This document shows positions 10,252-27,007 of a stretch of 48,302 nucleotides of DNA, piece after piece. The stretch is taken from positions 1 to 48,302 of the forward strand of contig JAPUKU010000222.1 in assembly GCA_027295505.1 (NCBI GenBank), given 5' to 3'. The translations under genes and the position numbers were made by a program. The notes beneath the pieces were generated by a model. That model had not been told where the DNA came from, did no database searches, and saw only the letters and a program-made list of their open reading frames with translations. Positions within the stretch are counted from its first letter, which is position 1. Each line of letters begins with the position of its first letter. Source of the stretch: Acidobacteriota bacterium (GTDB lineage Bacteria; Acidobacteriota; Polarisedimenticolia; JAPUKU01).

Positions 10252-11715
10252 CTAGTTGAGCTCCCTCGCCAGGCGGCGGAGCGATTTGAGCAAACCGTCT
10301 GCGTCGTCGTTTTCCGCGAGATAGTTCACCACCCCGGCACGCAGGAAAGTCTCACCGCGCAACCGGGTCGTGGACACCCATCCCTCCCCGGAAACCTCGA
10401 GCGCTCGCTGCAGACGGTCCTGGTGCTGATCGAGATCTTCCCCGGGCGGGAGTCCGGCGGGTCGGTGGCGGAAGCAGACAACGCTCAGATCGGGCTCCGG
10501 CGGATTGGCCTCGAAATCGTCCGATTCGCGGATGCGCCCCGACAGATGCGCGGCCAGATCCATGTTGCGATCGACCAGGTGCCCCAGCCCCCGGGATCCC
10601 AGGTGCTTCCACGACATCCACAGCTTTAGGCCCCGGAAGCGGCGCGAACCCTCGATGCCGAACTGGTACCAGTGGAGCGGCTCCTCACCCGGCCTGCCGG
10701 TGCGGTAATACTCGGGACTACTGCGGTACGAGTCGAGGAGGTCCTCGCGCCGCTTCAAGAGCACCGCCCCGATGTCATGGGGTTGAAAAAGCCACTTGTG
10801 GGGATCGAGAGTGACCGAGTCGTAGCGATCGAGGCCGGGCACCCGGTCCCGGTACTTCTGAGAAAGACGGGCGGCGCCGCCGTAGGCGGCGTCAGCGTGC
10901 AGCCACAGACCGTGCCCGGACCCGACCTCAGCAATCTCCACCAGAGGATCGACCGTGCCGGTGTTCGTGGTTCCGGCGTTGGCCACGACGCAGAAGGGGC
11001 GAAGCCCCGCCTCGAGATCCTCGCGGATGGCCTGATCGAGCGCGTCCACCTTGATCCGGAAGCGTTCGTCGCATTTCACCAGGCGCAGTGTCTCGGGCGG
11101 AAAACCGATGACGTCGAGTGAGCGCTTCACGGAGAAGTGCGTCTGCTCGGAGGCATAAAGACGCGCGCGGCGCATGGCGCCGTCGGCGTGCCGATCGGGC
11201 ACCTTGCGATCGCGCGCGACCTTGAGCGCCGTCAGGTTGGCGTTCATGCCACCGCTGGTGAGAATGCCGAAGGACCCTGGCCCATAACCGACCAGGGCGC
11301 CCAGCCAGCGCACGACCTCCTCCTCCACAAAAGCGGCCACCGGAGCAGTGACCCACAGGTCCACGCTCTGGTTGATCACCGAGGCGAGCAGATCTCCCAT
11401 CGCGGCCATCATGAGCGGCGGGGCTGTGAAGTAGCAGAACGCGCGCGGGTGATGGGCGTTCATCCCGTGTGGAAAGAGCCGGGTCCGCACCTCCTCGAGA
11501 ACCTCCCCGGCCGGACGGCCCTCTCCCGGCGCGTTCTCCTGCACACCGAAGGCCTTGCGGAACTCCGCGTAGGTATGCGAGCCGATCGGACGGCGCATCG
11601 CCTCCTCGTACAGGTAGTCGAGGGCCGCCTCAATCGACTCGTGCCCAAGCTTGCGGATCGCTTCCCGGCTCCGGGCCGGATCACGATAAAAAATAAGAGG
11701 GTCGCGCGTGTCCAT
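10252..11715 (-). CDS. Group II PLP-dependent decarboxylase (aromatic/glutamate decarboxylase family), possible tyrosine decarboxylase
   Basis: The 487-residue protein has the group II decarboxylase layout: TSGGMNANLTAL near residue 153, the PLP-stacking histidine H193 in EQTHFS, the pyridine-N aspartate D275 in HADAAYGG, and the PLP lysine K307 in DPHKW. The family decarboxylates aromatic amino acids, glutamate or aspartate. The start is placed at 11715 because the frame upstream is unlike the family and because a minus-strand TATAAT at 11776-11771 would place the transcript start between. It is divergent from the fwd operon. A tyrosine decarboxylase here would provide tyramine for methanofuran, the MfnA step, which is an inference from context. 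The enzyme is longer than archaeal MfnA (about 390 residues). Confidence 0.88.
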   Translation of the reverse strand: MDTRDPLIFYRDPARSREAIRKLGHESIEAALDYLYEEAMRRPIGSHTYAEFRKAFGVQENAPGEGRPAGEVLEEVRTRLFPHGMNAHHPRAFCYFTAPPLMMAAMGDLLASVINQSVDLWVTAPVAAFVEEEVVRWLGALVGYGPGSFGILTSGGMNANLTALKVARDRKVPDRHADGAMRRARLYASEQTHFSVKRSLDVIGFPPETLRLVKCDERFRIKVDALDQAIREDLEAGLRPFCVVANAGTTNTGTVDPLVEIAEVGSGHGLWLHADAAYGGAARLSQKYRDRVPGLDRYDSVTLDPHKWLFQPHDIGAVLLKRREDLLDSYRSSPEYYRTGRPGEEPLHWYQFGIEGSRRFRGLKLWMSWKHLGSRGLGHLVDRNMDLAAHLSGRIRESDDFEANPPEPDLSVVCFRHRPAGLPPGEDLDQHQDRLQRALEVSGEGWVSTTRLRGETFLRAGVVNYLAENDDADGLLKSLRRLARELN

Positions 11716-11770
11716 GATCTGAAAGGGGCAGCCACACCCCGGGACCTGGAACTGGCGTCGGGGACATAGC

Positions 11771-11776
11771 ATTATA
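11771..11776 (-). promoter_or_regulatory. -10 element (TATAAT) for the PLP decarboxylase
   Basis: The minus strand reads TATAAT here within the 8-mer CTATAATG. No good -35 is visible. The predicted start near 11764 gives a leader of about 50 bases to the ATG at 11715. Confidence 0.4.
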
Positions 11777-11804
11777 GAGCACCGCCGGCCTTCGTTCCCG
11801 GGCC

Positions 11805-11834
11805 TTGATGAGGATTGAAGCAGCAGGCTATAAT
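11805..11834 (+). promoter_or_regulatory. Sigma70-type promoter of the fwd/mch operon
   Basis: TTGATG (11805-11810), an 18-base spacer and a consensus TATAAT (11829-11834) precede fwdD. The predicted transcript start near 11841 gives a leader of about 39 bases. The same 8-mer CTATAATG occurs in the opposite direction at the decarboxylase promoter, about 50 bases away. Confidence 0.6.
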
Positions 11835-11879
11835 GTTGTGAATTCGTCATAACCCAGGTTTCTGGAGCAACAATTCCCC

Positions 11880-12218
11880 TTGGGCAAAGCCCCCAGTCTG
11901 GTCCTGATCACCGGCCGCTCGACCGCTCAGGGGAAGTTTCTGCACCTGGGCAAGGATTCCGAGGAATTCCAGGAGGAGGTCCTGCGGGTGAACATGAACG
12001 CTGAGGACATGGCCCGACGGGGGCTCGAGGGCGGAGCTGAAGTTCGGGTGCGCTCGGCCCATGGCGAGATGAAGGGCCGCTGTGTGCAGGCCGATCTGCC
12101 CGAGGGACTGGTGTTCATTCCCTACTCCGTGTACTGCAACCAGCTCATCGGCGGCGACACGGAGGGAAGCGGGATGCCGGATTCGAAGGGCCTTCAGGTC
12201 GAGGTGGAGGAAGCATGA
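11880..12218 (+). CDS. fwdD: Formylmethanofuran dehydrogenase subunit D (molybdopterin dinucleotide-binding domain)
   Basis: The 112-residue protein opens with LVLITGRSTAQGK, the hallmark of archaeal FwdD/FmdD, and ends with IPYSVYCNQLIGGDTEGSGMPDSKG, the region that contacts the metal-pterin dinucleotide. In archaea this small double-psi barrel completes the W/Mo-pterin site together with FwdB. The start is a TTG at 11880, because an in-frame stop lies just upstream and no ATG is available before the conserved part. A GGAG sits about 13 bases upstream. It is the first gene of the operon and its ATGA stop overlaps fwdB. Methylotrophic proteobacterial clusters, as I recall, lack this subunit, so its presence is informative. 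Confidence 0.85.
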   Translation: MGKAPSLVLITGRSTAQGKFLHLGKDSEEFQEEVLRVNMNAEDMARRGLEGGAEVRVRSAHGEMKGRCVQADLPEGLVFIPYSVYCNQLIGGDTEGSGMPDSKGLQVEVEEA

Positions 12219-13552
12219 CAGAGGTTTTCAAGAACGTCACCTGTCCGTTTTGCGGCGTGGTGTGCGACGATCTGCAGGTCAAGGTGGAGAACGGCGTCAT
12301 CACCGAGGCCAAGCGCGGCTGTGTGCTCGGTCGCTACACGTTCCTGAAGTACGATGGCGACCGTGCCACCATGCGCATTGACGGCAAGCCGGCCACGCTC
12401 GACGAGTGCATCGAGGCAGCGGTGGAGATCCTGGACGAGTCCACATTCCCCCTCATCTACGGACTGGCGTCGACCGAGTGCGATGCCCAGCGCAAGGCGG
12501 TCGAGCTCGCCGATCTGATCGGCTCCACAATCGACACCACTTCCTCCGTTTGCCATTCACCAACGCTGCAGGCGATCCAGCACATGGGAGACAGCACCTG
12601 CACCGTGGGCGAGATCAAGAACCGCTCGCGCCTGCTCATCTTCTGGGGCTGCAACCCGGCCGAATCGCACCCGCGACACTTCAGCCGTTACTCGGTGACT
12701 CCGGTCGGCAGGTTCGTACCGGAAGGGCGCAAGGGCCGCTACGTGGTGAACGTGGACGTGCGCAAGACCCCGAGTGCGCGTGCAGCCGATCTGTTCATTC
12801 AGGTTCCGCCCGGCAAGGATTACGAGGTGATCTCGACGCTCCGCGCCCTGGTCAACGGACGACCGGTCGACGCCGCGGAGGTGGCTGGAGTCAAGATCGA
12901 GATCCTGCGTGACCTCGCGGAGCGCATGAAATCGGTCAAGTTCGGTTCTCTGTTCTGGGGCATGGGGCTCACCATGAGCCGCGGCAAGCACATGAACGTC
13001 ATGGCCATGCTCCAGCTGGCGCGCGACCTGAACCAGTACACCAAGTTCACGGCCTCGCCCATGCGCGGCCACGGGAACGTGGTGGGCGCGGCCACGGTGC
13101 TGAGCTATACAACGGGCTACCCGTTCGGCATCAACCTGGGCCGAGGCTACCCCCAGTACGGTCCGGGCGAGTTCACCTCGGTCGACGTGCTGGCCCGGGG
13201 CGAGGCGGACGCGGCCCTGATCATCGCGGCGGATGCTGTGGGGAACTTCCCAGCCGCTGCGGCCAGCCACCTGAAGAAAATCCCGACCATCGCCATCGAT
13301 CCGAAAGAGAGCATGACAACCAAGACTGCCAACATTGTCATCGCCACTGCCGTCTCCGGTATCGAGACCGGTGGCACCGTGTACCGGATGGACGGTATCC
13401 CCCTTCCGCTCACGAAGATCATGGATTCCGACTACCCTTCCGACCTCGATGTCCTGAGCCGCATCATCGCGGGTATCCGGCGCCGGAGAGGACTCACGGA
13501 GACCGAGACACTCCATGCCGACGCTGAGAATCACCAACGGACGAGTCTTTGA
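12215..13552 (+). CDS. fwdB: Formylmethanofuran dehydrogenase subunit B (FwdB/FhcB), catalytic metal-pterin-type subunit
   Basis: The 445-residue protein aligns with archaeal FwdB from end to end. Cys10, Cys13, Cys17 (CPFCGVVCDD) and Cys36 form the [4Fe-4S] site. The active-site metal ligand is expected at Cys113 with His114 in SSVCHSPT, matching Cys118/His119 of the archaeal enzyme. Arg284 in PMRGHGNV matches the third active-site residue. Further conserved blocks are WGCNPAESHPRH and GMGLTMSRGKH. The methylotroph FhcB, as I recall, has lost these residues and the metal. This copy looks competent to bind both centres, so it may oxidise formyl-methanofuran to CO2 or work in reverse. The start has GGAGG before it. 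It overlaps fwdA by 38 bases. Confidence 0.93.
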   Translation: MTEVFKNVTCPFCGVVCDDLQVKVENGVITEAKRGCVLGRYTFLKYDGDRATMRIDGKPATLDECIEAAVEILDESTFPLIYGLASTECDAQRKAVELADLIGSTIDTTSSVCHSPTLQAIQHMGDSTCTVGEIKNRSRLLIFWGCNPAESHPRHFSRYSVTPVGRFVPEGRKGRYVVNVDVRKTPSARAADLFIQVPPGKDYEVISTLRALVNGRPVDAAEVAGVKIEILRDLAERMKSVKFGSLFWGMGLTMSRGKHMNVMAMLQLARDLNQYTKFTASPMRGHGNVVGAATVLSYTTGYPFGINLGRGYPQYGPGEFTSVDVLARGEADAALIIAADAVGNFPAAAASHLKKIPTIAIDPKESMTTKTANIVIATAVSGIETGGTVYRMDGIPLPLTKIMDSDYPSDLDVLSRIIAGIRRRRGLTETETLHADAENHQRTSL

Positions 13553-15161
13553 TCCCTCGCGGAAGCTGCGCGGGGATATTTCCGACCTCTGCATCAAGGA
13601 CGGCAAGATTGTCGAGTCGCTGCCCGGCGACGCGCCCGTTCTCGACGCCAAGAACCTGATCGTCTTTCCGGGCGGCGTTGACATCCACAGCCACATCGCC
13701 GGGCCCAAGGTGAACATCGGCCGCGCCCTGAGGCCGGAGGATCACCGGCACGATCCTGTGCCGCGCACCAAGATCCGCCGCTCCGGCACCGGAGGCAGCG
13801 TGCCCAGCGTTTTCGCCACCGGCTATCGGTATGCGGAAATGGGCTACACCACGGTCATGGAGGCCGCCGTCCCACCGATCGGCGCGCGCCATGCTCATGA
13901 GGAGCTCAACGACACGCCCATGTTCGACAAGGGCATCTACACCCTCATGGGCTCCAACGAGTTCGTGCTCAAGTACATTCGCGAGAAGCGCCCTGACAAG
14001 GTTCGCGACTTCGTGTCCTGGCTGCTACGCGCCACGCGCGGCTACGCCATCAAGCTCGTCAATCCAGGGGGCGTCGAGAACTGGAAGTACGGGCAGGATG
14101 TCACTGGACTCGACGATCTGGTCAACGACTTTGATGTCACGCCCCGGCAGATCCTCACCACGATGGCCTGGGTCAACGAGGAGCTCGGATTGCCCCACAC
14201 GATCCATTTGCACTGCAACAACCTGGGCGTTCCGGGCAACTACTCCCTGACGCTCGAGACCATGAAGGCCTTCGAGAAGCAGCGCGTGCACCTGACACAC
14301 ATGCAGTTTCACTGCTACGGCGGAAAATCGTGGGCCGGTTTCTCTACCAAGGCGGCCGAGATCGCCGAGTACATCAATTCGCATCCCAACTTCACCCTCG
14401 ACGTGGGACAGATCATCTTCGGCGACACCACGACGATGACCGCTGATGGACCCTGGCAGTACCGCCTCCACGGCCTTAACCACCGCAAGTGGTACAACGC
14501 CGACGTGGAGCTGGAATCCTCCTGCGGCGTCGTGCCGTACGTTTTCAAGGAGAACAACTACGTCAACGCCATGCAGTGGGCGATCGGCCTCGAGCTGTTC
14601 CTGCTGGTACGCGACCCCTGGCGCATCTACCTGACCACCGATCATCCGAACGGGGGCTCGTTCATCTTTTACCCTCATATCATCCGCATGCTGATGGATC
14701 GCGAGTACCGCCAGGACTGCCTGAAGAAGGTCCATCCCCGCGTGCTCCGTGACACGGCGTTGCAGCACCTCGACAGGGAGTACACGCTCGAGGAGATCTG
14801 CATCATCACACGCTCGGGGCCCGCGCGCGCCCTGGGCCTCAGGCACAAGGGCCACCTCGGCCCGGGCGCCGACGCAGACGTGGCCATCTACAAGGAAGAC
14901 TCGAACCGCGAGGCCATGTTCGAGGGCCCGATCTACGTTCTCAAGGGAGGCGAACTGGTTCTCAAGGATGGAGAGATCGTGAAGCATGTCTTCGGGCGCA
15001 CGCTGTTTGTGGACACGCCCGAGCCAGCGGAACTTCTCGGCGAGATCCGTGATGACTTCGAGAAGTATTACACGGTGCAGTTCGATAACTATTCGCTCCC
15101 GGTTGAGGCGCTTCGCAGCTATCAGCCGGTTGCCACCCGTGCGAAAGCCCGGACATCCTGA
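13515..15161 (+). CDS. fwdA: Formylmethanofuran dehydrogenase subunit A (FwdA/FhcA), binuclear-metal amidohydrolase
   Basis: The 548-residue protein is an amidohydrolase-fold FwdA/FhcA that interconverts formyl-methanofuran and formate plus methanofuran. His58 and His60 in DIHSH give the first metal site, and Lys180 in GYAIKLVNPGG is the expected carboxylated bridging lysine. The catalytic aspartate lies in TTDHPNGGSF, with further histidines at HLHCNN and THMQFHCYG. The length matches the family. The start ATG at 13515 lies inside fwdB and opens with the conserved LRITNGRVFDPS. In archaea FwdA passes formate through an internal channel to FwdB, and the co-occurrence of both competent subunits here fits that. 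Confidence 0.94.
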   Translation: MPTLRITNGRVFDPSRKLRGDISDLCIKDGKIVESLPGDAPVLDAKNLIVFPGGVDIHSHIAGPKVNIGRALRPEDHRHDPVPRTKIRRSGTGGSVPSVFATGYRYAEMGYTTVMEAAVPPIGARHAHEELNDTPMFDKGIYTLMGSNEFVLKYIREKRPDKVRDFVSWLLRATRGYAIKLVNPGGVENWKYGQDVTGLDDLVNDFDVTPRQILTTMAWVNEELGLPHTIHLHCNNLGVPGNYSLTLETMKAFEKQRVHLTHMQFHCYGGKSWAGFSTKAAEIAEYINSHPNFTLDVGQIIFGDTTTMTADGPWQYRLHGLNHRKWYNADVELESSCGVVPYVFKENNYVNAMQWAIGLELFLLVRDPWRIYLTTDHPNGGSFIFYPHIIRMLMDREYRQDCLKKVHPRVLRDTALQHLDREYTLEEICIITRSGPARALGLRHKGHLGPGADADVAIYKEDSNREAMFEGPIYVLKGGELVLKDGEIVKHVFGRTLFVDTPEPAELLGEIRDDFEKYYTVQFDNYSLPVEALRSYQPVATRAKARTS

Positions 15162-15172
15162 TTCCCGATTCC

Positions 15173-16087
15173 GTGAAGCTCAACAACGTCGAAATTGAGG
15201 ACACCTACGCCGAGGCCTTCGGCATGCGGGCCGCGCGGCTGCTGATCACCGCCGCTGACGTCGAGTGGGCGCGCACGGCGGCCTCGGTCATGACCGGCTT
15301 CGGTACCTCCGTCATCGGCTGCAACTGCGAGACCGGCATCGAGGGTCCGCTGCCCGAATCGACACCGGACGGACGGCCCGGCGTGCGCGTGCTGTTGTTT
15401 GCCACTTCCTCGAAGCAGCTCGAGCAGCAGCTCGTGCTGCGCGTCGGCCAGTGCGTCATGACCTGTCCGACCACCGCGTGTTTTGACGATCTGCCGTCGG
15501 AGGAACGCCTCAAGGTCGGATCCAAGCTGCGCTTCTTCGGCGACGGTCACCAGATCAGCAAGCGCATCGAGTCGTCGCTGTCGGAAAACGGCGCCACCCC
15601 TCGACGCCTGTGGCGCATTCCCGTCATGGATGGCGAGTTCGTGGTGGAAGACAAGGTCGGGACACGGAAGGCCGTGGCGGGCGGCAACTTCTTCATCATG
15701 GGCCGCACCGAGGAGGATACCTCCAGAGCGGCCCGGGCCGCGGTGCGCGCCATGCGCGAGATCCCTGGAATCATCATGCCGTTTCCGGGTGGCGTCGTTC
15801 GCAGCGGCAGCAAGATTGGCTCCAAGTACAGGAAGTTGATTGCCTCCACAAACTCGCCGTACTGTCCCACCCTCAGGGGACAGGTCGAGAGCGCCCTGCC
15901 GCCCGGAGCGTCCTGCTGCCTGGAGATCGTCGTGGATGGCCTTGACGAGGAGTCGATTGGCCGTGCCATGGCCGTGGGGATCCGCGCCGCCTGCACACGC
16001 GGCGTGGTGCGCATTTCGGCCGGAAACTACGGTGGCAAGCTCGGCAAGTTCCACTTCCATCTGTTACAGCTTCTGGAGAAAAACTGA
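15173..16087 (+). CDS. fhcD: Formylmethanofuran:H4MPT formyltransferase (Ftr/FhcD)
   Basis: The 304-residue protein matches Ftr along its full length, beginning with NNVEIEDTYAEAFGM and including GCNCETGIEGPL, VMTCPTTACFD and GGNFFIMGRTEEDT. It moves the formyl group between formyl-H4MPT and formyl-methanofuran. The start is a GTG at 15173, eleven bases after fwdA. In methylotrophs it is a subunit of the Fhc complex, and its place between fwdA and fwdC here keeps that bacterial arrangement. Archaea usually encode Ftr elsewhere. Confidence 0.95.
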   Translation: MKLNNVEIEDTYAEAFGMRAARLLITAADVEWARTAASVMTGFGTSVIGCNCETGIEGPLPESTPDGRPGVRVLLFATSSKQLEQQLVLRVGQCVMTCPTTACFDDLPSEERLKVGSKLRFFGDGHQISKRIESSLSENGATPRRLWRIPVMDGEFVVEDKVGTRKAVAGGNFFIMGRTEEDTSRAARAAVRAMREIPGIIMPFPGGVVRSGSKIGSKYRKLIASTNSPYCPTLRGQVESALPPGASCCLEIVVDGLDEESIGRAMAVGIRAACTRGVVRISAGNYGGKLGKFHFHLLQLLEKN

Positions 16088-16088
16088 A

Positions 16089-17039
16089 TTGGCCTCTCCT
16101 TCAGCGGCGCGCAAGCCACGACGCAAGGAGGCGCCCCGCAAGCCGGCCCGGCGCCGATCCTCGGCCAGCGCTGTGAAAGGCTCCGGAAAATCCGCCCGGC
16201 ACGCTGATGCTGGCCCGGCCACCCGGCTTATGCTGAAGGACTACACCTCCATACCTGTGGAGGCCGATTCTCTGCGACCGGACAAGATCACCGGCCTCAG
16301 CCGCGACCAGATTCTGGCGCTTCCGCTTTACCATGGCAACAAGACGGTCACCGTTGGCGATTTCTTCGAGGTACAGGAAACCGGAGGAGACACCCTCGTC
16401 ATCGAGGGCGATCTCTCGAAGTTCAAGAAGCTGGGACAGGAGATGGAAGGCGGCCGGCTCGTCGTGCGCGGCAACGCGGGCATGCATCTGGGCGCCTATC
16501 TTCGCGGCGGGACGATCGAGGTTTTCGGCGACACTGCTGACTGGGCAGGCGCCGAGATGAAAGGCGGCCTCATCCACATTCACGGAAACACCGGCCACCG
16601 GGCGGGCGCCGTCTACCGGGGAAGCGAAGTCGGCATGCACGGCGGCGTCATCCTCGTCGACGGCAACGCCGGGCTGGAGATCGGATCGTTCATGCGCCGC
16701 GGGCTGATCGCGGTGGGAGGCAACGCTGGTGATTTCGCGGGCGCACACATGATCGCCGGCTCGATCCTGGTGATGGGAGAGATGGGCGTGCGCGCAGGAG
16801 CCTCCATGCGGCGCGGCACGCTGGTGACGCTGAAGCCGTTTGAACCGCTTCCCACGTTCCGCGACTCAGGAGCGTACCGCTTCCCCTTCCTGCGGCTCTT
16901 CACGGATCGGCTGCACAGCAGGGGCTTCCGCGTGCCGGCCGACGTCGAGCAGTCCCTGTTCCGCCGCTTCGTGGGAGACATGAATGAGATCGGTCTTGGT
17001 GAAATCCTGATCCTCGAAGGTAGGGATCATGATGGATGA
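16089..17039 (+). CDS. fwdC: Formylmethanofuran dehydrogenase subunit C (FwdC/FhcC) with basic N-terminal tail
   Basis: The conserved part begins near MLKDYTSIPVEAD (codon at 16228) and is a right-handed beta-helix of repeats such as GGRLVVRGNAG, GGTIEVFGDTA and GGLIHIHGNTG, as in FwdC and the GltS C-terminal domain. An open frame continues upstream to a TTG at 16089, directly after the ftr stop. It would add about 46 residues, very rich in Arg, Lys and Ser (KPRRKEAPRKPARRR). The frame, composition and tight spacing favour the long form, but a GTG near 16171 or the ATG at 16228 are possible starts. The gene overlaps mch by 11 bases. It scaffolds the Fhc/Fwd complex. Confidence 0.88.
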   Translation: MASPSAARKPRRKEAPRKPARRRSSASAVKGSGKSARHADAGPATRLMLKDYTSIPVEADSLRPDKITGLSRDQILALPLYHGNKTVTVGDFFEVQETGGDTLVIEGDLSKFKKLGQEMEGGRLVVRGNAGMHLGAYLRGGTIEVFGDTADWAGAEMKGGLIHIHGNTGHRAGAVYRGSEVGMHGGVILVDGNAGLEIGSFMRRGLIAVGGNAGDFAGAHMIAGSILVMGEMGVRAGASMRRGTLVTLKPFEPLPTFRDSGAYRFPFLRLFTDRLHSRGFRVPADVEQSLFRRFVGDMNEIGLGEILILEGRDHDG

Positions 17040-18003
17040 AGCACGGCTGGGAGCCGAGGTCAAGATGCTGAATCCGGCGGCATGGGAGATCGTCGATCGC
17101 CTCGCTGCACATCCGGTCCCGAAGGGTGTTTCGGTTTGCACTCTTGACGGAGGCACGCGCGTCATCGACTGCGGCGTCAACGCTGCCGGAGGCCTGGTGA
17201 CGGGGGTCGAGTTCGCGCGCGCCTGCCTGGGCGGTCTGGCAGACGTCGAGATCGTGCCCTGGCGCCTGGGAGATCTGCCCCTGCTGGCCTGTCGGGTGGT
17301 GACGGACCACCCGCTGGCGTCGTGCATCGGTTCGCAGTACGCCGGCTGGAAGATCGAGAAAGGGAAGTTCTTCGCCATGGGCTCGGGGCCGGCCCGTGCG
17401 GCGGCGGCAGTGGAGCCTCTTTACCAGAAGTACCCGATCCGGGTGCGGGCGAAACAGGTCGTGCTTCTGCTCGAGGCTTCGGCCCTGCCCGGAGCCGAGG
17501 TGGCGGCCGAGGTGGCCCAGCGATGCGGCGTTGAGCCGCAGGATTTGATGCTGCTGGTCGCCGCCACTGGCAGCCCCGTTGGTTCGGTCCAGATCGCGGC
17601 GCGCAGCGTCGAGACAGCGCTTCACAAGCTCATGGAGCTGGGCTTTGACCTCCACCAGGTGCGCTCCGGCGTGGGCCTGTGCCCCATCGCCCCCGTCATC
17701 GGCGATGCGCTCAAGGCGATCGGCCGCACCAACGACGCCGTGCTCTATGGCAGCGAGGTGCACCTGGTCGTCGATGCCGAGGACGATCAGCTTGCGGATC
17801 TGGCGCCCCGCGTGCCCTCCAGCGCCAGCCGCGATTACGGGAAGCTGTTCCATGACCTGTTCAAGCAGTACGGTGACTTCTACAAGATCGACCCGATGTT
17901 ATTCAGCCCGGCCAGCGTCAGCATCGCCAACACCCGAAGCGGCCGGGTCTTTCACGCCGGCAAGCTATCCCCCGACCTGCTCAGAAAATCATTCGGCTGT
18001 TGA
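17029..18003 (+). CDS. mch: Methenyltetrahydromethanopterin cyclohydrolase
   Basis: The 324-residue protein is Mch, which hydrolyses methenyl-H4MPT to 5-formyl-H4MPT in the cytosol. Diagnostic blocks are DCGVNAAGGL, GSQYAGWKI, FFAMGSGPARA, SVQIAARSVETALHKL and RSGVGLCPIAPV. Two ATG codons at 17029 and 17032 overlap the end of fwdC. It links MtdB (upstream reaction) and Ftr/Fwd (downstream) and closes the conserved core of the plus-strand operon. A 75-base gap separates it from the next gene. Confidence 0.96.
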   Translation: MMDEARLGAEVKMLNPAAWEIVDRLAAHPVPKGVSVCTLDGGTRVIDCGVNAAGGLVTGVEFARACLGGLADVEIVPWRLGDLPLLACRVVTDHPLASCIGSQYAGWKIEKGKFFAMGSGPARAAAAVEPLYQKYPIRVRAKQVVLLLEASALPGAEVAAEVAQRCGVEPQDLMLLVAATGSPVGSVQIAARSVETALHKLMELGFDLHQVRSGVGLCPIAPVIGDALKAIGRTNDAVLYGSEVHLVVDAEDDQLADLAPRVPSSASRDYGKLFHDLFKQYGDFYKIDPMLFSPASVSIANTRSGRVFHAGKLSPDLLRKSFGC

Positions 18004-18078: not shown

Positions 18079-18981
18079 ATGACCCGCATCGCAATCCTGA
18101 GCTCGGGTACCGGCTACCACCTCACGCGCCTGATCGAGGCGTTTGCTGCACAGGGCGCCGAGGCGAGACCCCTTCCCATCCCGCGCCTGATCGGATCGAC
18201 CAGCTCCGGGCCCATTCTTTCTTCGAAGGGTGAGTCCCTCGTCGACTTCGACGCGGTCGTGGTGCGCGTCATCCCGCTGGGATCGCTCGAGCAGATCATC
18301 TTTCGGATGGACGCCCTCCACCTTCTGGAACGGCTGGGAGTGCCAATCTTCAACCCCCCGCGAGCCATCGAGCGCACGGTGGACAAGTTCTGGACCTCGT
18401 CCCTCCTCGAGGAGGAAGGCCTGCCGACCCCGCGCACGGTGGCGGCGGAGTCGTTCCAGGACGCCATGGAGGCGTTTGCAAAGCTGGGCGGCAACGTCGT
18501 CGTGAAGCCGCTGTTCGGATCGGGCGGCCGGGGGATCTTCCGGCTCAACGACGAGGAGATGGCCTACCGGGCCTTCCGCACCATGGAGATGCACCGCTGG
18601 ATCTACTACCTCCAGGAGTTCATTCCGCGCGGCCTGCACGATGTGCGCGCTTTCGTCATCGGCGAGCGGATCGTCGCCTGCTGCAAACGCTCGGCGTTCG
18701 ACTGGCGCCGCAACGTGGCCCGAGGAGCCATGGTGCGGCCCTTCCAGCTCTCTGAGGCCCAGCAAGAGCTGGTACTGCACACCTGCAGCGCCCTGCAGGT
18801 CGAGTACGCGGGCGTCGATCTGATCGAGGACGCGGAAGGAAAGACCTGGATCCTGGAGGCGAACAGCATCCCGGGCTGGGTGGGACTCCAGGAGAGCACC
18901 TCCATCGACATCGCCGCCGAAATCGCCGGCCACGTTCTGGCTCGCGCCCGCGGCTCCCGCCGGACCCTGGCCGCGGGCTGA
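18079..18981 (+). CDS. RimK-like ATP-grasp ligase, candidate H4MPT:glutamate ligase (MptN-like)
   Basis: The 300-residue protein has the RimK/ATP-grasp fold. The pre-ATP domain opens with RIAILSSGTGYHLTRLIEAF, the glycine-rich loop is KPLFGSGGRGIF, and the metal-binding end is WILEANSIPGW. Close relatives occur in the H4MPT gene clusters of methylotrophs and in archaea, where MptN adds L-glutamate to tetrahydromethanopterin to form the sarcinapterin type. From context I infer glutamylation of the pterin cofactor; glutamylation of the furan cofactor is the alternative. It lies 75 bases after mch on the same strand. Confidence 0.85.
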   Translation: MTRIAILSSGTGYHLTRLIEAFAAQGAEARPLPIPRLIGSTSSGPILSSKGESLVDFDAVVVRVIPLGSLEQIIFRMDALHLLERLGVPIFNPPRAIERTVDKFWTSSLLEEEGLPTPRTVAAESFQDAMEAFAKLGGNVVVKPLFGSGGRGIFRLNDEEMAYRAFRTMEMHRWIYYLQEFIPRGLHDVRAFVIGERIVACCKRSAFDWRRNVARGAMVRPFQLSEAQQELVLHTCSALQVEYAGVDLIEDAEGKTWILEANSIPGWVGLQESTSIDIAAEIAGHVLARARGSRRTLAAG

Positions 18982-18991
18982 CGCCGGGCTG

Positions 18992-19975
18992 ATGCCGCTC
19001 GCCCGGCCCCCCCGACATTCTCTCTCCCGCCGCACCGGGCCACGGCACAGGCCCTCTTCGAGTCGGCGCCGCATCCGATCTCCGTTCAAGGCCACGCGCG
19101 CGGCGGTCAAATCGATCCCCGAACGCTCCCGGTTCTCGTTCCCCCTCAGGCCGCGCCAGGCGGCAGATCTGGCCGCCTTCGCCTGCCTGGCCGAGGTCGC
19201 CTCCGAGAAACCTGGAAACGTCACCCTGCGCCGCGGACTGCCGGGTCTCTCCCCGTTCGATTTCCTGCACAGTGCCTCGGCTCTGCGCGCCGGCTTCTCC
19301 TCGTCGGGCGCCCGCAGCGTGGGCCGCCTGGTCCTGACCACGATCCGGCGTACCCGCCGTCGCGTGAGCACGAACACGAACCTCGGCCTTGCCCTCATCC
19401 TGGCCCCTCTCGCGGTCGCCAGCACGCGCGCACGATCCACTTCCCTCAGAAAGAGCCTCCGCCAGACGCTGCGCGGGCTCACGCGACACGACGCCGAGCA
19501 GGTCTACGAGGCGATCCGGCTGGCCGGGCCCGGCGGCCTGGGGAAGGTGAAGAAGCAGGACGTGTCACAGAGACCGGACAGGAACCTGCGCGAGTGCATG
19601 GTGCTGGCGCGGCGCCGCGACTCAATTGCCGCCGAGTATTCCTCCGGCTACACGCTCACGTTCGGGACAGGGGCTCCCGCGCTGAAGCGCGCCCTGGATC
19701 AGGGGTTTTCAATCAGACAGGCGATCGTCATGGCGTACCTGAAGCTCCTGTCGGTGCGGCCCGATTCGCTCATCTCCCGCAAGCACGGATCGCAAACCGC
19801 CAGGCGCGTCTCACGCCTCGCCGCTGACGTTCTCAAGAGTGGCGGTATCTCTACCGCTGCCGGCCGCTGCAGAACCATCGCCCTCGACCGCACGCTGCGC
19901 TCATCCTGCCTGAATCCTGGCACCACCGCGGATCTCACCGCTGCGGCTGTTTACGTCACGCTCGTCTCGGACTGA
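18992..19975 (+). CDS. CitG-like (triphosphoribosyl-dephospho-CoA synthase family) protein of H4MPT clusters
   Basis: The 327-residue protein belongs to the CitG/MdcB superfamily, seen in EVASEKPGNVTLRRG and TNTNLGLALILAPLA. CitG makes a phosphoribosyl-CoA prosthetic group, but there is no citrate or malonate lyase here. A subgroup of this family is a regular member of bacterial H4MPT clusters and needed for the pathway, with no proven reaction. A phosphoribosyl-transfer step in building the H4MPT side chain is an attractive inference. The first 50 or so residues are Arg/Ser-rich and outside the conserved domain, so a later start is possible. The stop lies six bases from the stop of the convergent beta-RFAP synthase. 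Confidence 0.8.
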   Translation: MPLARPPRHSLSRRTGPRHRPSSSRRRIRSPFKATRAAVKSIPERSRFSFPLRPRQAADLAAFACLAEVASEKPGNVTLRRGLPGLSPFDFLHSASALRAGFSSSGARSVGRLVLTTIRRTRRRVSTNTNLGLALILAPLAVASTRARSTSLRKSLRQTLRGLTRHDAEQVYEAIRLAGPGGLGKVKKQDVSQRPDRNLRECMVLARRRDSIAAEYSSGYTLTFGTGAPALKRALDQGFSIRQAIVMAYLKLLSVRPDSLISRKHGSQTARRVSRLAADVLKSGGISTAAGRCRTIALDRTLRSSCLNPGTTADLTAAAVYVTLVSD

Positions 19976-19981
19976 GATTTA

Positions 19982-20941
19982 TTAAGGACAGGGGTTCAGA
20001 TCGACTTCAGCACCGTGGTTGCGGGGGCGGAGGAGGCGCACGTCGTACCTGGCGCCGGAGGGCCCGTCTTCGAGCAGGCGTTCCGCCAGATCCTGTGCCG
20101 AAGCCGGGTCCGGTGTCAGCGCGTAGACACAGGGACCCCACGAGCTCTGGCCAACGCCGTGCGCTCCGGCCTGCCTGAGCCAGCGGACGAGCGGCTCCGC
20201 CTGAGAATGGTAGAGGTCCCCCTGGGCTTCCCGGAAAACGGCTCCCACTGCGTCCTGGATCTTCTCCAGTGAGGCTCCGAACATCTTCAGGTCCCGCTCG
20301 AGGAGCGCGGGAAGCAGCCGCATCAGGATCATCCCGGAGAGATGCTCGAGGAGAGCCTCAGACGGATCGGGTTGCTTGGAAAAGATGCGCTCCTCCTCGT
20401 GGCCGCTGACGCCCCTGCCTTCGCGCGGGATGGCTGCGATGATTCCCCACTCTTCGGGAAAAGGCTGGCGGAAGATGAGCGGTGGCGGGGAGGGTCGACC
20501 CTCGGCGTGTCCCGCATCGAGAAGAAACCCCCCGAGCCGGAACGCGTGCACGCCGATTCCGGAGCGCCGCCCACGTCCGAGCGAATTGCACCAACTGTAA
20601 ACATCCTCAGGACGATCGTGAAGGCGTGACAGCGCTGCCGCCACCGCCAGCGACATCTGCGTTCCTGATCCGAGGCCGACGTGATCCGGGATCGCCTGCC
20701 GCACCCGGATGCGGGCGCCGCCCCGCAGCCTCGATGTGTCGAGGAAGGCAGCCGCGACCCGCCTGACCCTTTCCGCCTGCATGCCTTCTACTTCCAGGTC
20801 ATCGGATGGCTCGGCTTCGAGGACCCACGCCGGTCCCTCGATCGCCAGGCCCAGGCTTCCGAAGCGCACGCCCTTGCCGGGGCGCACGTTCATGAGACCG
20901 AAGTGCAGACGTGCGGAAGCCTTGACGGTGACCCGCGGCAT
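19982..20941 (-). CDS. Beta-ribofuranosylaminobenzene 5'-phosphate synthase (beta-RFAP synthase)
   Basis: The 319-residue GHMP-kinase-fold protein condenses p-aminobenzoate with phosphoribosyl pyrophosphate, the committed step of H4MPT synthesis. Visible motifs are ASARLHFGLMNV at the N-terminus, VGLGSGTQMSLAVAAAL for the phosphate loop, and GRGRRSGIGVHAF. The ATG at 20941 overlaps the TGA of the DUF447 gene (TGATG). The frame extends 54 codons further upstream, but that part is antisense-like. pabB, which helps make p-aminobenzoate, lies in the mfn operon at 35-36.5 kb. This is the last gene of the leftward H4MPT biosynthesis operon. Confidence 0.92.
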   Translation of the reverse strand: MPRVTVKASARLHFGLMNVRPGKGVRFGSLGLAIEGPAWVLEAEPSDDLEVEGMQAERVRRVAAAFLDTSRLRGGARIRVRQAIPDHVGLGSGTQMSLAVAAALSRLHDRPEDVYSWCNSLGRGRRSGIGVHAFRLGGFLLDAGHAEGRPSPPPLIFRQPFPEEWGIIAAIPREGRGVSGHEEERIFSKQPDPSEALLEHLSGMILMRLLPALLERDLKMFGASLEKIQDAVGAVFREAQGDLYHSQAEPLVRWLRQAGAHGVGQSSWGPCVYALTPDPASAQDLAERLLEDGPSGARYDVRLLRPRNHGAEVDLNPCP

Positions 20942-21525
20942 CACTTCACGCCCGCCGCGCCGGAACCCGTCTTTCCTGACAGGTGTTTCCGCACGTACTC
21001 GGTCAGAAACGCGAATGCCTCGCGCTCCTGCGGTCCCGCGGTCTTGTCGATGAGCGGAGTGAGGTTCTCCACCTGGCGACCCACTTCCTCGGCGCCCAAC
21101 CACGGGATGCGACTGGCCGCGATAGCAGCCTCGATCACCGCGTGCTTGGCCCGGTTCAGACCCACGAAATCACGCACCCGCCCCTCACCGACGCACCGGC
21201 ACAGGAAACGCGCCCGGTCGCCGCCCCGTTCAGCGGTCTCGACCTCAAACTCACGCCAGTGGCAGGTATCGGAAAGCACCGCCCCGCGCACACTTCGCGC
21301 CGGGAAGGTGGAGAACGGTTTCTCGCCCACGGCGCAGTGTGCGAAGACAAGCACGCTGTCGGTGAAGTTCACGACACCCTGTCCGTTGAGAGTCAGATTG
21401 CGGAATGTGGCGGAATCACGATAGGGCCGCATCAGCAGGCGCTCATCCTCCCATGAAATCCCCATGGGAGCGAGGTTGACTTCCCCTTTCTCGTTCAGCG
21501 TACTGACAATGACTTCGAGGATCAT
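20941..21525 (-). CDS. DUF447 family protein of H4MPT clusters
   Basis: The 194-residue protein matches DUF447, a split-barrel flavin-binding-like family found in methanogens and in bacteria with H4MPT. It begins ILEVIVSTLNEKGEVNLAPMG and includes NFTDSVLVFAHCAVG, patterns reminiscent of flavoredoxin-type FMN proteins. Its reaction is not established. A reductive or aromatic-ring step in H4MPT synthesis is plausible from context. It overlaps both neighbours (ATGA with the FolB-like gene and TGATG with beta-RFAP synthase), so it is tightly co-translated with the pathway. Confidence 0.85.
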   Translation of the reverse strand: MILEVIVSTLNEKGEVNLAPMGISWEDERLLMRPYRDSATFRNLTLNGQGVVNFTDSVLVFAHCAVGEKPFSTFPARSVRGAVLSDTCHWREFEVETAERGGDRARFLCRCVGEGRVRDFVGLNRAKHAVIEAAIAASRIPWLGAEEVGRQVENLTPLIDKTAGPQEREAFAFLTEYVRKHLSGKTGSGAAGVK

Positions 21526-21923
21526 GCGGCGGAGACCTCGCTGCGATCGAACGTCATCTCAACCGCCACATGCTCGACCTGCGGAAGCACAAACTTGTAG
21601 AAACGTATGAACACACGCCGGGCGTTACTGTTTGCGAAGATCACCCGCGCCAGCCCCAACGAGGCGGCCTCGATGAGGACAAAACGTCCCGATTCCAGGT
21701 AGTGGCGCACCCACACCCTGACATCACGCGAGAGAGCCCGCCGCGATTCATCGGCAGGGATCCTCTCGAGCACCAGATCGACCACAACGCGCTGTCGCAC
21801 GGAGCGTTCCTCCTCATCGACGCCGATGTGCACGCGGCATTCGATGTTATCGACCTCCAGAATTCCCCCGGCGCCCTCCGAGAGGCGCCGCTTCTTCACC
21901 GTCCTGCTCGAAACGCGCTTCAT
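21522..21923 (-). CDS. Dihydroneopterin aldolase-like protein (FolB family)
   Basis: The 133-residue protein resembles FolB/FolX: an N-terminal strand ILEVDNIECRVHIGVDEEER like the family's opening, RQRVVVDLVLE as the second strand, and a C-terminal VEHVAVEMTFDR. It should cleave dihydroneopterin to the hydroxymethyl pterin used for the H4MPT head group. The classical lysine-proline motif is replaced by FYKFVLP, so catalysis needs checking. The first 20 residues are basic. It overlaps the DHPS-like gene by four bases (ATGA). Confidence 0.8.
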   Translation of the reverse strand: MKRVSSRTVKKRRLSEGAGGILEVDNIECRVHIGVDEEERSVRQRVVVDLVLERIPADESRRALSRDVRVWVRHYLESGRFVLIEAASLGLARVIFANSNARRVFIRFYKFVLPQVEHVAVEMTFDRSEVSAA

Positions 21924-23341
21924 GAGTCAGTCTTTCCCTTTCGCTGGCGCGGACGTCGGCGGTGGCGCTCCGGATCCTCGTCCTCCGGGTAGGTCAGGTA
22001 CCCCCAGTCAAGCGGCTCGCCCTGGTGGTACTTCTTGCCGAGCCTCAGACAGATCTGTGCCTTCATCAGCTCCCGCCCCAGGTAGAACGAATGGGAGGCG
22101 TCGTCGTCCACTCCCAGGCGCGTGTAGAGCTCACGGATGTTTGTGCCCTTGACAAAGACATCGCGGTTGAACACGTAGATGTGCCGCCCGTCAGTGTCGA
22201 TGCGGAAATTGAGATCACGGATCTTGCGCTGCATGGAGCTGAGCTCTCCTTCGCTCGCGTACCGGGCGTTTCGATCACGAACCGTCAGAAGCGCCACGTT
22301 GATCCCCTTCGGAATCGCTTTGTGCTTGCGGGCGTAGTACATGATGCGGCGCCCCTCGTCAAGCTCGCGCACGCTTCCGCGGGCCCAGTTGGCGACCTCG
22401 GTGGTGAGCACGTACCGAATGTGAAGCTCGCTCATGAGGCCGAGAAAAACGGCGTTAACACCAGTTGAATCGGCCTCGGTGAGCTCGGTCAAGTTTCCGA
22501 CTCCCATGAGGATCTCGTCATCCGGGAAGCGCTCCCGGGTCTCAACGTAGCGGCGCAGCGCAGCTGCCAGCCCGAAGTGGATCGGTTCGAGGACGGGATC
22601 GAGGATGATCTTCGAGGCACCTGCGTCCCGCGCGCGCTCTGCGTTGGCGGCCAGTGAGTCGACACCTTCTCCGGCCTCCGGAAGGATCACAGGAACCGCG
22701 CGAATCCGGCCGGCAAGATCCATGTTGCTCGAGTTCAGGCTGAGAACATAATCGACGCCCGCCTCGTCGGCTCTCAGGATCTCCTCCCGATTGAACGTAT
22801 CCACGCTCAGCTTGAACCCGCGCTCCTTGAGCGCGTGGATCACCGCGCCGATAGCGTCGAACGTTCTCCCGGGCGTGCAGCCGATGTCGATAATGTCGGC
22901 GCCGCAGCGTCGGTAGCGTTCAGCCGCCTCGAGAATCTGCTCCACCGATAGCTCGGGGGCGTCATTGATCTCTGCAAGTATCTGCAGATCGTAGGCGCCG
23001 TAATCCTCTCCCGGCGGCCGCTGCCCGAAATGCACCGGCAGATCGCGCAGGTCCTTGGGCCCGGTCTGGACCGGCACTCCCAGCTGTGAGCTCGCGCCCT
23101 CGAGATCTACCTTGCACAAGCCGGGAAGGAGCACGCTCTCGCCCACAGCACAGCGCAGCGACCGCACCAGGAAGCGGGTCGTGATGAGAGCCGCCACGGT
23201 AATCGGCATCTCCGCCACGCGGTACTTCACCGGCAGCTTGGTCGATTCGAGGACCTGTTCTAGAGACTCCCGGGCCAGAGATCCGGTCACGAAGACCCAG
23301 GTTTCCTTGCTGGCCGTCCGGGCTTCCTGCACTACAGCCAC
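21920..23341 (-). CDS. Dihydropteroate synthase-like protein of H4MPT biosynthesis
   Basis: The 473-residue protein has three parts. Residues 1-115 form an N-terminal domain found only in the H4MPT-type enzymes. The TIM-barrel DHPS core begins near ILAEINDAP and includes DIIDIGCTPG, LSVDTFN and ILDPVLEP. The C-terminal 130 residues end with LGRELMKAQICLRLGKKYHQ and a basic tail. Homologues occur in methanogens and methylotrophs. It is expected to join the hydroxymethyl-dihydropterin to the beta-RFAP-derived arylamine. The GTG start at 23341 overlaps the SDR gene by 10 bases. Confidence 0.88.
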   Translation of the reverse strand: MAVVQEARTASKETWVFVTGSLARESLEQVLESTKLPVKYRVAEMPITVAALITTRFLVRSLRCAVGESVLLPGLCKVDLEGASSQLGVPVQTGPKDLRDLPVHFGQRPPGEDYGAYDLQILAEINDAPELSVEQILEAAERYRRCGADIIDIGCTPGRTFDAIGAVIHALKERGFKLSVDTFNREEILRADEAGVDYVLSLNSSNMDLAGRIRAVPVILPEAGEGVDSLAANAERARDAGASKIILDPVLEPIHFGLAAALRRYVETRERFPDDEILMGVGNLTELTEADSTGVNAVFLGLMSELHIRYVLTTEVANWARGSVRELDEGRRIMYYARKHKAIPKGINVALLTVRDRNARYASEGELSSMQRKIRDLNFRIDTDGRHIYVFNRDVFVKGTNIRELYTRLGVDDDASHSFYLGRELMKAQICLRLGKKYHQGEPLDWGYLTYPEDEDPERHRRRPRQRKGKTDS

Positions 23342-24184: not shown

Positions 24185-25420
24185 TCACGAAGCGGACCGG
24201 ATTCGGCTCTGAAACCCTGAAAGCTGGCGCACGGCACACCCGCATTGTTTCAACGCCTCCCGGCACTTCGCAGCAGTGGCCCCGGTTGCGTAGACGGTGC
24301 AGACCGGCCAGCTCTGCCTGAGCAGGGTCCCGGATCCGGGCACGTCGCGCGCTCCCACTTTCTGGAGCTGTCCGGGCGGCCCGGCGATCGTACGCTCGAG
24401 CGCGTACACGATCCCCTTGCCCCGCCAGCGCTGGCGGTGGGATCCTCGAGAAAAGCCTTTGCATCCAAGTCCCGTTACATCTTCACCCGGAAGGCGCCCG
24501 CGCTCGCAGGCGGCGCGGTGCAGCGCGAACAGGGATTGCCCCGACGCTTCCTCGATCAGCTCCATCGATGCGGTGAAGCGCGGGTTGATCTCGAGGATCC
24601 GTGGCACGCCGCGATCGAGCACGAAATCAATCCCGTTGAGCCCGCGGAGATCGAACGCTTGCGTGGCCGCCCCCGCGGCCCGCTCGAGAGTTCTCCGGGC
24701 ACGCGTCGACAGCCACTCTTCCGGAGGGCCCAGGAGGCTTCCGCCGTAGGCATGGCCGGGGATCTTCAGGACCACCGGATCGTGCAACGCCTGCGAGTAC
24801 CCGAGCACACGGTACCGGTGGCTATCGGCGACAAACGACACCGATCCGGAAACACCTCGAATCTTCTCCTGCAGGTAACCGCGACGAGGCAGCGCACCGA
24901 TCCATCCGCGCTCCGGACACACGTCCCGAATGCGCACTCCTCCTCCACCATGGCGCGGCTTCCATAGCAGGCGGCCCTGTCGCGCCAGCCTCACGGCCGC
25001 CACCGGAATGGGGCGCCCGGGTTCCGGGAGAACCCAGGTGCGTGGATACGGCAGCTCGTGACAACCGAGGAACCGGAGAAACGTGTCGAGGTTTCCGAGC
25101 GCGTCCACGCTTCCGGCGCTGTTGCCGATCACTCGAGAACGCTCCTGCAGACGCGCAAGAAGACGCGGATGGTTCTCCATGCCGCCGGAGAACATCACGG
25201 CGCCTGGCTCTAGCGCGATGGCTGCGCGAAGGAGCACCCCCGTCGTCAAAGGCCCCGGGACGTCGCGGCCCAGAGCCAGGCGGCGGCAGCGCAGGGGATG
25301 ATCCGTGTCAGCGAAGAAATCGAGCGTGAGGAGCGGACCACGGTATCCGGAGCGGCAGACGGATGCAGCCAGCGCCCGGGTACTGACACCGACCAGCAGG
25401 AGCGTTCGTGAGTTATCCAA
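24185..25420 (-). CDS. ATP-grasp ligase of the H4MPT gene cluster
   Basis: The 411-residue protein is an ATP-grasp (DUF201/PylC-like) ligase. Visible parts are a Rossmann-like N-terminus (LLLVGVSTRALA), the glycine-rich loop WKPRHGGGGVRIR, and the metal-binding LEINPRFTASMELIEE. Members of this family recur in bacterial H4MPT clusters, where they are needed for the pathway but have no proven reaction. The start is set at a TTG at 25420 that overlaps the mtdB stop by eight bases; the frame upstream of it is antisense to mtdB. It may join an amino acid or hydroxyglutarate-type unit to the H4MPT side chain. The last 80 residues contain several cysteines and are less conserved. Confidence 0.82.
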   Translation of the reverse strand: MDNSRTLLLVGVSTRALAASVCRSGYRGPLLTLDFFADTDHPLRCRRLALGRDVPGPLTTGVLLRAAIALEPGAVMFSGGMENHPRLLARLQERSRVIGNSAGSVDALGNLDTFLRFLGCHELPYPRTWVLPEPGRPIPVAAVRLARQGRLLWKPRHGGGGVRIRDVCPERGWIGALPRRGYLQEKIRGVSGSVSFVADSHRYRVLGYSQALHDPVVLKIPGHAYGGSLLGPPEEWLSTRARRTLERAAGAATQAFDLRGLNGIDFVLDRGVPRILEINPRFTASMELIEEASGQSLFALHRAACERGRLPGEDVTGLGCKGFSRGSHRQRWRGKGIVYALERTIAGPPGQLQKVGARDVPGSGTLLRQSWPVCTVYATGATAAKCREALKQCGCAVRQLSGFQSRIRSAS

Positions 25421-26303
25421 GAAGGTGTGTGGCGCGCTCGAAGGCGGCCTGCGGATCGATGACGACCCGCTGATCCGGGTCACGCAGGGTGCCGAGCAGG
25501 GCGGCCTCGGTACGGAACTTGAGATCGCCCACGGCCAGAGGCCCGAGGCCGAAGACACCCGGCGCGATCTCCGTACCGTCATCATGGGGCTTGAGTCCTT
25601 CGATGCCGGCCGGCGGCACTGCGTTGACATCGGCAACCACGCGCGGGCCGCCAAGCTTCTGGAGTGAGGCCTGGGATAGAAGCTTCACTCCGACCGCGGC
25701 GGTAGCGAGGACCACCTCGGCCTCGGAGGCGAGCTTGGCGAACACCTCTTCCGATCCCGCCTGGCGGGCCTCCACCTGGGTGCCGAACAGGCCGCGCACC
25801 TCGTCGACCGCTTCCTGAGCACCTTCCAGCCGGCGCGAGGTGAGCACCACCTGCGCGCCTTCGCGGACCGCCAGCGCTGCGGCCACGCGTCCCACGGTGC
25901 CGGTGCCTCCGAGAACCGCGACCCTCCGGCCCTTGAGGCCGCCGAGTCCGTGGTCCTTGCTGGCCTTCCGCACCTTGGCAACCAGCGCAGCCGCCGTAGT
26001 GAAGGCGCCCCTGGGGTCGACCATGACGCTGAGGCGGAAAGGATCGAAAAACGACTTCCTCGCAGCCTCCAGCATGCGCAGCGAGAGCGACAGGCTGCTT
26101 CCACCAATGAAGATCGCGGTGTGCTGTGCGCCCCTGGGGCCCCGCGAGAACATGGCGTCCTGTACCAGTGGCACGAACTCCTTCTCGCTCACGCCAGAAT
26201 ACGGGATCACCGCGTCGAAGCCCGCGTCATAGGCCATGTTGACGTCGAACGGGCTGACCTGCGGGTCGGCGGAGATCAGATGCAGAAGGTCTTTGCGTTC
26301 CAT
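25413..26303 (-). CDS. mtdB: NAD(P)-dependent methylene-H4MPT dehydrogenase
   Basis: The 296-residue protein is MtdB/MtdA-like, with SPFDVNMAYDAGFD at the N-terminus, AIFIGG, FTTAAALVAKV, the dinucleotide fold VLGGTGTVGR and VADVNAVPPAGIEG. It oxidises methylene-H4MPT to methenyl-H4MPT, feeding Mch. Its position next to fae suits MtdB, which prefers H4MPT; MtdA also acts on tetrahydrofolate. No Shine-Dalgarno sequence precedes the ATG at 26303. Instead a T-rich tract directly follows a large hairpin, so expression probably depends on readthrough of that structure. Confidence 0.93.
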   Translation of the reverse strand: MERKDLLHLISADPQVSPFDVNMAYDAGFDAVIPYSGVSEKEFVPLVQDAMFSRGPRGAQHTAIFIGGSSLSLSLRMLEAARKSFFDPFRLSVMVDPRGAFTTAAALVAKVRKASKDHGLGGLKGRRVAVLGGTGTVGRVAAALAVREGAQVVLTSRRLEGAQEAVDEVRGLFGTQVEARQAGSEEVFAKLASEAEVVLATAAVGVKLLSQASLQKLGGPRVVADVNAVPPAGIEGLKPHDDGTEIAPGVFGLGPLAVGDLKFRTEAALLGTLRDPDQRVVIDPQAAFERATHLLG

Positions 26304-26884: not shown

Positions 26885-26978
26885 AATGTGTCCTCCTCCC
26901 ATGCACTCCTGGCCCGCCACCCGCACCCGCCAGCCGGACACGGCAGGGTTCCAGATAAACTGCTATGGAAACAACTGA

Positions 26979-27007
26979 TTGGAAGATTTGTAACACAACG
27001 ATAGAAT
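26979..27007 (+). promoter_or_regulatory. Promoter of mfnB
   Basis: TTGGAA (26979-26984) and TAGAAT (27002-27007) are separated by 17 bases. The predicted start lies about two bases before the ATG at 27016, so the message would be leaderless, which fits the lack of a Shine-Dalgarno sequence. Confidence 0.55.

Follow-up and report, generated by a model that had tools for sequence, protein, structure and literature searches.

Active-site residues of a formylmethanofuran dehydrogenase retained in FwdB of an H4MPT gene cluster from an Acidobacteriota genome, compared with bacterial and archaeal relatives

The formate-making hydrolase of Methylorubrum extorquens, the Fhc complex, is the enzyme usually shown in schemes of bacterial H4MPT pathways. 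Its FhcB subunit is devoid of the Mo/W cofactor (PMC10100899), in line with the loss of the sites that the preliminary description of the DNA analysed here had given for the methylotroph complex; the accompanying statement that the complex is metal-free has to be withdrawn, because the A subunit carries a binuclear metal site (PMC11656701). In 2016, the fmdDBAC operon of a planctomycete was reported to encode a Sec-containing FmdB (PMC4807772), retention of FwdD was described in the same year for NC10, Firmicutes and Synergistetes (PMC5020050), and 149 bacterial FwdB of archaeal origin followed in 2023 (PMC10100899). Intact bacterial Fwd/Fmd, the Sec form included, is already known, and the present locus is a further example. 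FwdF and FwdG are present in the characterised methanogen complexes and were reported absent from another bacterial Fwd (PMC7325909); for the bacterial Fwd branch, neither they nor an equivalent were taken as a requirement.

The window, i.e., the whole stretch of 48,302 nucleotides that was analysed, contains fwdB at 12215–13552 on the plus strand, an ATG-initiated open reading frame of 445 aa predicted to encode the Mo/W-bisPGD and [4Fe-4S] subunit with Cys113 as the metal ligand. The protein scores 527.6 bits with TIGR03129, the model of formylmethanofuran dehydrogenase subunit B (cut-off 327.8), and the E-value of 1.6e-158 indicates that this match did not arise by chance; a PF00384 profile search of the host genome missed this FwdB, which TIGR03129 recovered. 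Among proteins of solved structure, archaeal FwdB rank first (8rja_B at 1.7e-125, 9sfi_Q, 5t5i_B, 9sw6_J and 7bkb_H) with identities to archaeal FwdB of 36–46%, and Methylorubrum FhcB (6s6y_B) gave a weak match (3.5e-19, 71.9 bits) whose best stretch spans residues 231–420. In a joint alignment that included the window FwdB, the archaeal FwdB of known structure (5T5I, 8RJA, 9SFI, 7BKB and 9SW6) and four FhcB-like proteins, C10, C13, C17 and C36 correspond unambiguously to C9, C12, C16 and C35 of 5T5I (M. wolfeii), the four-Cys [4Fe-4S] motif, as does the C113-H114 pair to C118-H119, and R284 and H286 to the active-site Arg and His, R288 and H290. The residues listed in the preliminary description (Cys10/13/17/36, Cys113-His114 and Arg284) are all present and align to functional residues of the five archaeal proteins, and in the comparison that it proposed they match the FwdB of Methanothermobacter, the match to Methylorubrum FhcB being weak. 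Overall, 66 of the 86 positions identical across the five archaeal structures are kept. Four residues between 12557 and 13162 deviate at nearly invariant positions: S115, which adjoins the Cys-His pair, R139, Y298 and G316 stand where Gly, Asp, Trp and Asn are found in at least 80 of the 83 other intact homologues. An AlphaFold2 model (pLDDT 72, pTM 0.71), least confident in the cofactor loops 109–132 and 284–319, had 8rja_B as its top Foldseek match (TM 0.74/0.77), with 5t5i at about 0.75 and 6s6y lower at 0.56. The fold is closest to archaeal FwdB, and the model gains little beyond the sequence evidence.

Together, the surrounding genes make up an almost complete H4MPT and methanofuran module. 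Upstream of fwdB and overlapping its start lies fwdD (11880–12218, plus) for the molybdopterin-dinucleotide-binding subunit (PF01568, 50 bits; PDB 2ki8, 9sfi_S and 5t5i_D), and downstream lies fwdA (13515–15161, plus; TIGR03121, 773 bits; 570 bits to 8rja_A) for the formyl-MFR hydrolase/condensing subunit, an amidohydrolase in which HxH, the Lys of the IKxVNP stretch, HCN, TH, the Asp of TTDHPN and the gatekeeper Lys of the binuclear site described in PMC11656701 all align. The same strand carries ftr for the formyl-MFR:H4MPT formyltransferase (15173–16087; TIGR03119, 424 bits, cut-off 293), fwdC for the beta-helical bridging subunit (16230–17039; TIGR03122, 259 bits, cut-off 131), whose frame opens upstream within ftr with the homologous part beginning near 16227, and mch for the methenyl-H4MPT cyclohydrolase (17029–18003; TIGR03120, 372 bits). 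These are followed by an MptN-like ATP-grasp ligase of H4MPT tailoring (18079–18981, plus; NF040720 MptN as best model, 239 bits, below the cut-off of 350) and a CitG-like protein standard in H4MPT clusters (18992–19975, plus; PF01874, 221 bits), whose gene adjoins mptN also in NC10, gammaproteobacterial and Chloroflexi loci.

On the minus strand are encoded the beta-RFAP synthase MptG with a GHMP kinase fold (19982–21103; TIGR00144, 170 bits, cut-off 113.5), the frame of which is probably overlong in its 5' part, a DUF447 protein of H4MPT clusters (20941–21525; PF04289 and PF20766), a FolB-like dihydroneopterin aldolase (21522–21923; PF02152, 44 bits), a DHPS-like pterin protein (DUF6513) of H4MPT synthesis (21920–23341; PF20123; TIGR00284, 179 bits), an MtdB-type methylene-H4MPT dehydrogenase (25413–26303; PF09176 Mpt_N, 112 bits) and the formaldehyde-activating enzyme Fae (26384–26941; TIGR03126, 240 bits, cut-off 118). 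The methanofuran part comprises the precursor synthase MfnB (26965–27732, plus; PF04476, 203 bits), an MfnE-like kinase matched only in the C-terminal part of its frame (32131–33312, minus; NF040622, 83.5 bits, below cut-off), an H4MPT-linked C1 transfer or MfnF-like protein (32835–33902, minus; TIGR03123, 325 bits, cut-off 244) and an MfnD-like tyramine-glutamate ligase (33860–34981, minus; PF02655; NF040722, 127 bits, below cut-off). A PLP decarboxylase divergent from fwdD (10252–11850, minus; PF00282, 233 bits) is possibly a tyrosine decarboxylase of the MfnA type; its role is uncertain because other decarboxylase models outscore TIGR03812 MfnA (104 bits, below cut-off).

FwdA, FwdB, FwdC and FwdD of Fwd/Fmd are all encoded in the window, and the definition of Fhc, an FhcB without Mo/W-ligand residues and no FwdD, does not apply, both the residues and FwdD being present. 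A redox-capable Fwd, as opposed to an Fhc-type hydrolase, is a well-supported prediction from these sequence features. Neither redox-partner genes nor FwdF/G or an equivalent electron-transfer subunit were found in the window, and the Fer4_7 matches of the genome include no multi-Fer4 polyferredoxin. The missing redox partner and the S115, Y298, G316 and R139 substitutions speak against a redox enzyme and for a different arrangement, in which an Fhc-like hydrolase would operate in the host, with FwdA releasing formate, FwdB acting as a scaffold with relict residues and a separate formate dehydrogenase making CO2. Such an enzyme is encoded in the host genome (TIGR01591, about 793 bits), so a formate-releasing hydrolase would be no dead end.

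The bacterial setting assumed from the start is borne out by a bacterial RpoB in the host genome, which is 95.5% complete with 0.8% contamination. The RpoB tree groups the genome at 100/99 with its class and at 100/100 with its phylum, separate from NC10 (Methylomirabilota), Planctomycetota, Nitrospirota, Chloroflexota and Pseudomonadota. In the FwdB tree, the window protein instead branches with NC10 at a non-decisive 94/91, close to the bacterial base and beside Hadarchaeota. The AU test rejected a clade of the window FwdB and the Sec-containing FwdB from the same phylum (p = 0.0005), which indicates either two or more acquisitions of fwd in the phylum or a loss followed by reacquisition.

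The host genome further encodes two aldehyde:ferredoxin oxidoreductases (AOR), two MoeA and one FdxA-type ferredoxin; at its 95.5% completeness, no match was obtained for the CODH/ACS beta subunit (AcsB/CdhC, PF03598), the haem-copper oxidase (COX1, PF00115) or the PQQ methanol dehydrogenase (TIGR03075). This inventory fits neither XoxF/MxaF-type aerobic methylotrophy nor, by AcsB/CdhC, H4MPT-type Wood-Ljungdahl CO2 fixation. A mainly CO2-reducing enzyme that supplies formyl-methanofuran for biosynthesis or for an incomplete Wood-Ljungdahl pathway, as in methanogens, would accord with the reversibility of the chemistry in archaea (PMC11656701), and the two AORs together with the missing haem-copper oxidase suggest a low-potential ferredoxin metabolism. 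We regard this as quite improbable: with no AcsB-type CODH/ACS found, a Wood-Ljungdahl role would be without its other half, the cluster contains Fae and MtdB, and no electron-donating FwdF/G module was seen. The presence of Fae and MtdB in the cluster, together with the negative search for AcsB, favours formyl oxidation over CO2 fixation. The ability to run in either direction, as proposed in the preliminary description, is a chemically plausible prediction for the window enzyme.

Relatives were sought in one genome collection with an alignment of four bacterial FwdB, which recovered 560 relatives, whereas a search of genome contigs with a single FwdB protein returned none. The loci of the best 80 of these 560 were analysed; most are bacterial, and they belong to Methylomirabilota (NC10), Planctomycetota, Gamma- and Betaproteobacteria, Chloroflexota, Nitrospirota and Hadarchaeota. 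C10/13/17/36, C/U113, H114, R284, G285 and H286 are invariant in all 84 intact homologues (the best 80, the window and three relatives), the conservation of C10/13/17 being partly due to selection because one of the two search patterns includes CxxCxxxC, which leaves the other positions unaffected. The same residues being invariant in the best 80 loci, the intact site is a family trait and not a rarity. The earlier view of a true formylmethanofuran dehydrogenase is supported by every tested ligand and catalytic residue and by the adjacent FwdD, the protein being clearly unlike FhcB; as an oddity, the locus does not stand out, since the 80 best loci are alike.

fwdD lies beside fwdB in 65 of 80 intact loci, in all three Sec loci and in none of the four FhcB-like loci, which have short flanks. 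Two NC10 loci (L024 and L025) show nearly the whole gene order of the window. In several planctomycete loci (L029, L032, L033, L035, L036, L038, L040 and others), fwdD-fwdB occurs without adjacent fwdA or ftr, the genes of the complex thus being dispersed in these genomes. One contig labelled Euryarchaeota (SP207; L067) has its FwdB inside Planctomycetota and is probably from a mislabelled bin. Neighbourhood cluster 5 (16 loci), consisting of minus-strand frames overlapping fwdA/fwdB, and neighbourhood cluster 12 were dismissed as antisense artefacts. Formate dehydrogenase was over cut-off in 10 of 16 intact-FwdB genomes, and its co-occurrence was set aside as uninformative for telling dehydrogenase from hydrolase.

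Cys and Sec exchange directly at the ligand position. An in-frame TGA occurs at codon 113 of fwdB in two genomes of the same class (G005 and G024), one of the same phylum (G050) and one locus of Planctomycetia (L088). On its 3' side stands CACGGCCC, then, about 20 bases on, the stem-loop GCCGYCC-AGKT-GGGYGGY. This stem-loop beside the TGA of the metal-ligand codon is SECIS-like (loci L005, L006, L007 and L088); for L088, the stem came out as the minimum-energy fold in the longest of the stretches tried and in none of the shorter ones. SelB was over cut-off in all three Sec-FwdB genomes searched, and a profile search of the window's genome, whose FwdB has Cys, found none over cut-off.

Among 41 genomes of the window's class, three have an intact FwdB and four have FhcB-like proteins. 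The latter keep 149 of 344 cells at the 86 archaeal-identical positions, and C10, C113, H114, R284 and H286 are absent from all four, which makes them a natural negative control. These proteins (L008–L011) are without the Mo/W site and one Fe-S Cys; their CGxPC and CPxC motifs are kept, so that a metal may still be bound. That degenerate forms arose in the same class shows that the transition from dehydrogenase to hydrolase occurs, and this adds, with the several substitutions in the window FwdB and the cluster's want of an electron-transfer subunit, to what can be said for a hydrolase in the host. Such a hydrolase is nevertheless unlikely: the degenerate relatives have lost residues that the window FwdB keeps, every tested ligand and catalytic residue as well as FwdD has been kept over a large divergence (about 55–60% identity overall), and Sec at the ligand position in relatives would have no obvious purpose in a scaffold. 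The within-class series of Cys, Sec and degenerate forms is an addition of the present analysis.

Neighbours of the other bacterial fwd clusters were identified over the best 80 loci by ORF clustering with Pfam and PDB searches. An FdxA-type ferredoxin is encoded near fwd in 12 loci and an FprA-type NADPH-ferredoxin reductase in 11 (1lqt at 7e-109). The pair fdxA-fprA directly follows fwdC in Gammaproteobacteria and precedes fwdD, in another order, in a betaproteobacterium (L046, 5243–6929); these two arrangements suggest an electron route from formyl-MFR to NADP+. The loci with the pair downstream of fwdC are L042, L066, L069, L071–L073, L075, L077, L080, L097 and L099. In Planctomycetota, 11 fwd loci carry a tungsten-type AOR (1aor at 1.6e-85) near fwdDB, often with moaD-like, moeA and mobA genes (L027, L030, L056, L058, L070, L087, L090, L092, L098, L100 and L102). 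MobA occurs in 10 loci (one of Hadarchaeota), MoaD-like proteins in 10 and MoeA in 8, mainly in Planctomycetota; these genes and AOR lie within about 10 kb of fwd in varying positions and strands. The neighbour genes serve the synthesis or use of Mo/W-pterin or the transfer of ferredoxin electrons; they are concentrated in few lineages and are not independent across all loci, and they point to a Mo/W enzyme handing electrons to ferredoxin. No published report of the association of fdxA-fprA, AOR or Moco genes with fwd was found in the literature searched, which was covered in part, and we present these associations as an addition.

Based on these results, a redox-active formylmethanofuran dehydrogenase of archaeal-side origin likely ends the bacterial H4MPT pathway of C1 oxidation. 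Fae, MtdB and Mch would bring formaldehyde-level carbon to formyl-H4MPT, and Ftr would transfer the formyl group to a methanofuran-type carrier, which FwdA would hydrolyse to formate. Formate would then be channelled inside the complex to the Mo- or W-bisPGD centre of FwdB/FwdD, with Cys113 as a ligand, and converted to CO2, the two electrons leaving via the [4Fe-4S] cluster of FwdB; a soluble ferredoxin would receive them and, in part of the bacteria, hand them on to NADP+ through FprA. For the window organism, we infer the metal, the direction and ferredoxin as the acceptor. In archaea, the F420-reducing enzyme 8RJA (PMC11493965) sets a precedent for an Fwd that works oxidatively with a changed acceptor.

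A wider proposal, which we consider evenly balanced, is that in several bacterial phyla the last step of H4MPT C1 oxidation is catalysed by a Mo/W (Cys/Sec) Fwd feeding ferredoxin and, via FprA, NADPH, that Methylorubrum FhcB without Mo/W is a derived exception, and that the window organism oxidises C1 units without PQQ methanol dehydrogenase, haem-copper oxidase or CODH/ACS. Should the majority of bacterial complexes be redox enzymes, formate would be bypassed and low-potential electrons gained, and the C1 oxidation of uncultured methanotrophs and planctomycetes would come to be limited by W, Mo or Se. A concrete candidate electron acceptor is offered by the fdxA-fprA association, and the Sec/Cys exchange, taken with the degenerate FhcB-like forms of one class, provides a natural series in which to trace the origin of the hydrolase.

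Compared with known systems, Fhc of M. extorquens (6S6Y) has homologous A, B, C and Ftr (D) subunits and performs the same pathway step, but unlike the window it has no FwdD, and its FhcB no Mo/W cofactor. The actinobacterial Fwd of Hakuba (PMC7325909) is likewise encoded in a bacterium, in an fwdDBA-ftr-fwdC operon, with the Fe-S residues and Cys118 kept according to its authors; that genome encodes CODH/ACS and is devoid of genes for H4MPT synthesis, whereas the window genome shows the opposite in what was tested. The FmdB/FwdB of Planctomycetes and NC10 (PMC4807772, PMC5020050, PMC10100899) share the fwdD-B-A(-ftr-C) set and the residues with the window, their ligand being Cys or Sec; the window belongs to another phylum by RpoB, has the Cys form and shows at most 62% identity. 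With the archaeal Fwd/Fmd of M. wolfeii (5T5I), an ethane-oxidising archaeon (8RJA) and M. hungatei (7BKB), the window has FwdA, B, C and D and all Fe-S, Mo/W-ligand and catalytic residues in common, as well as the best fold match, but its cluster is without FwdF/G or an F420-reducing subunit, resides in a bacterial host and is coupled to Fae and MtdB.
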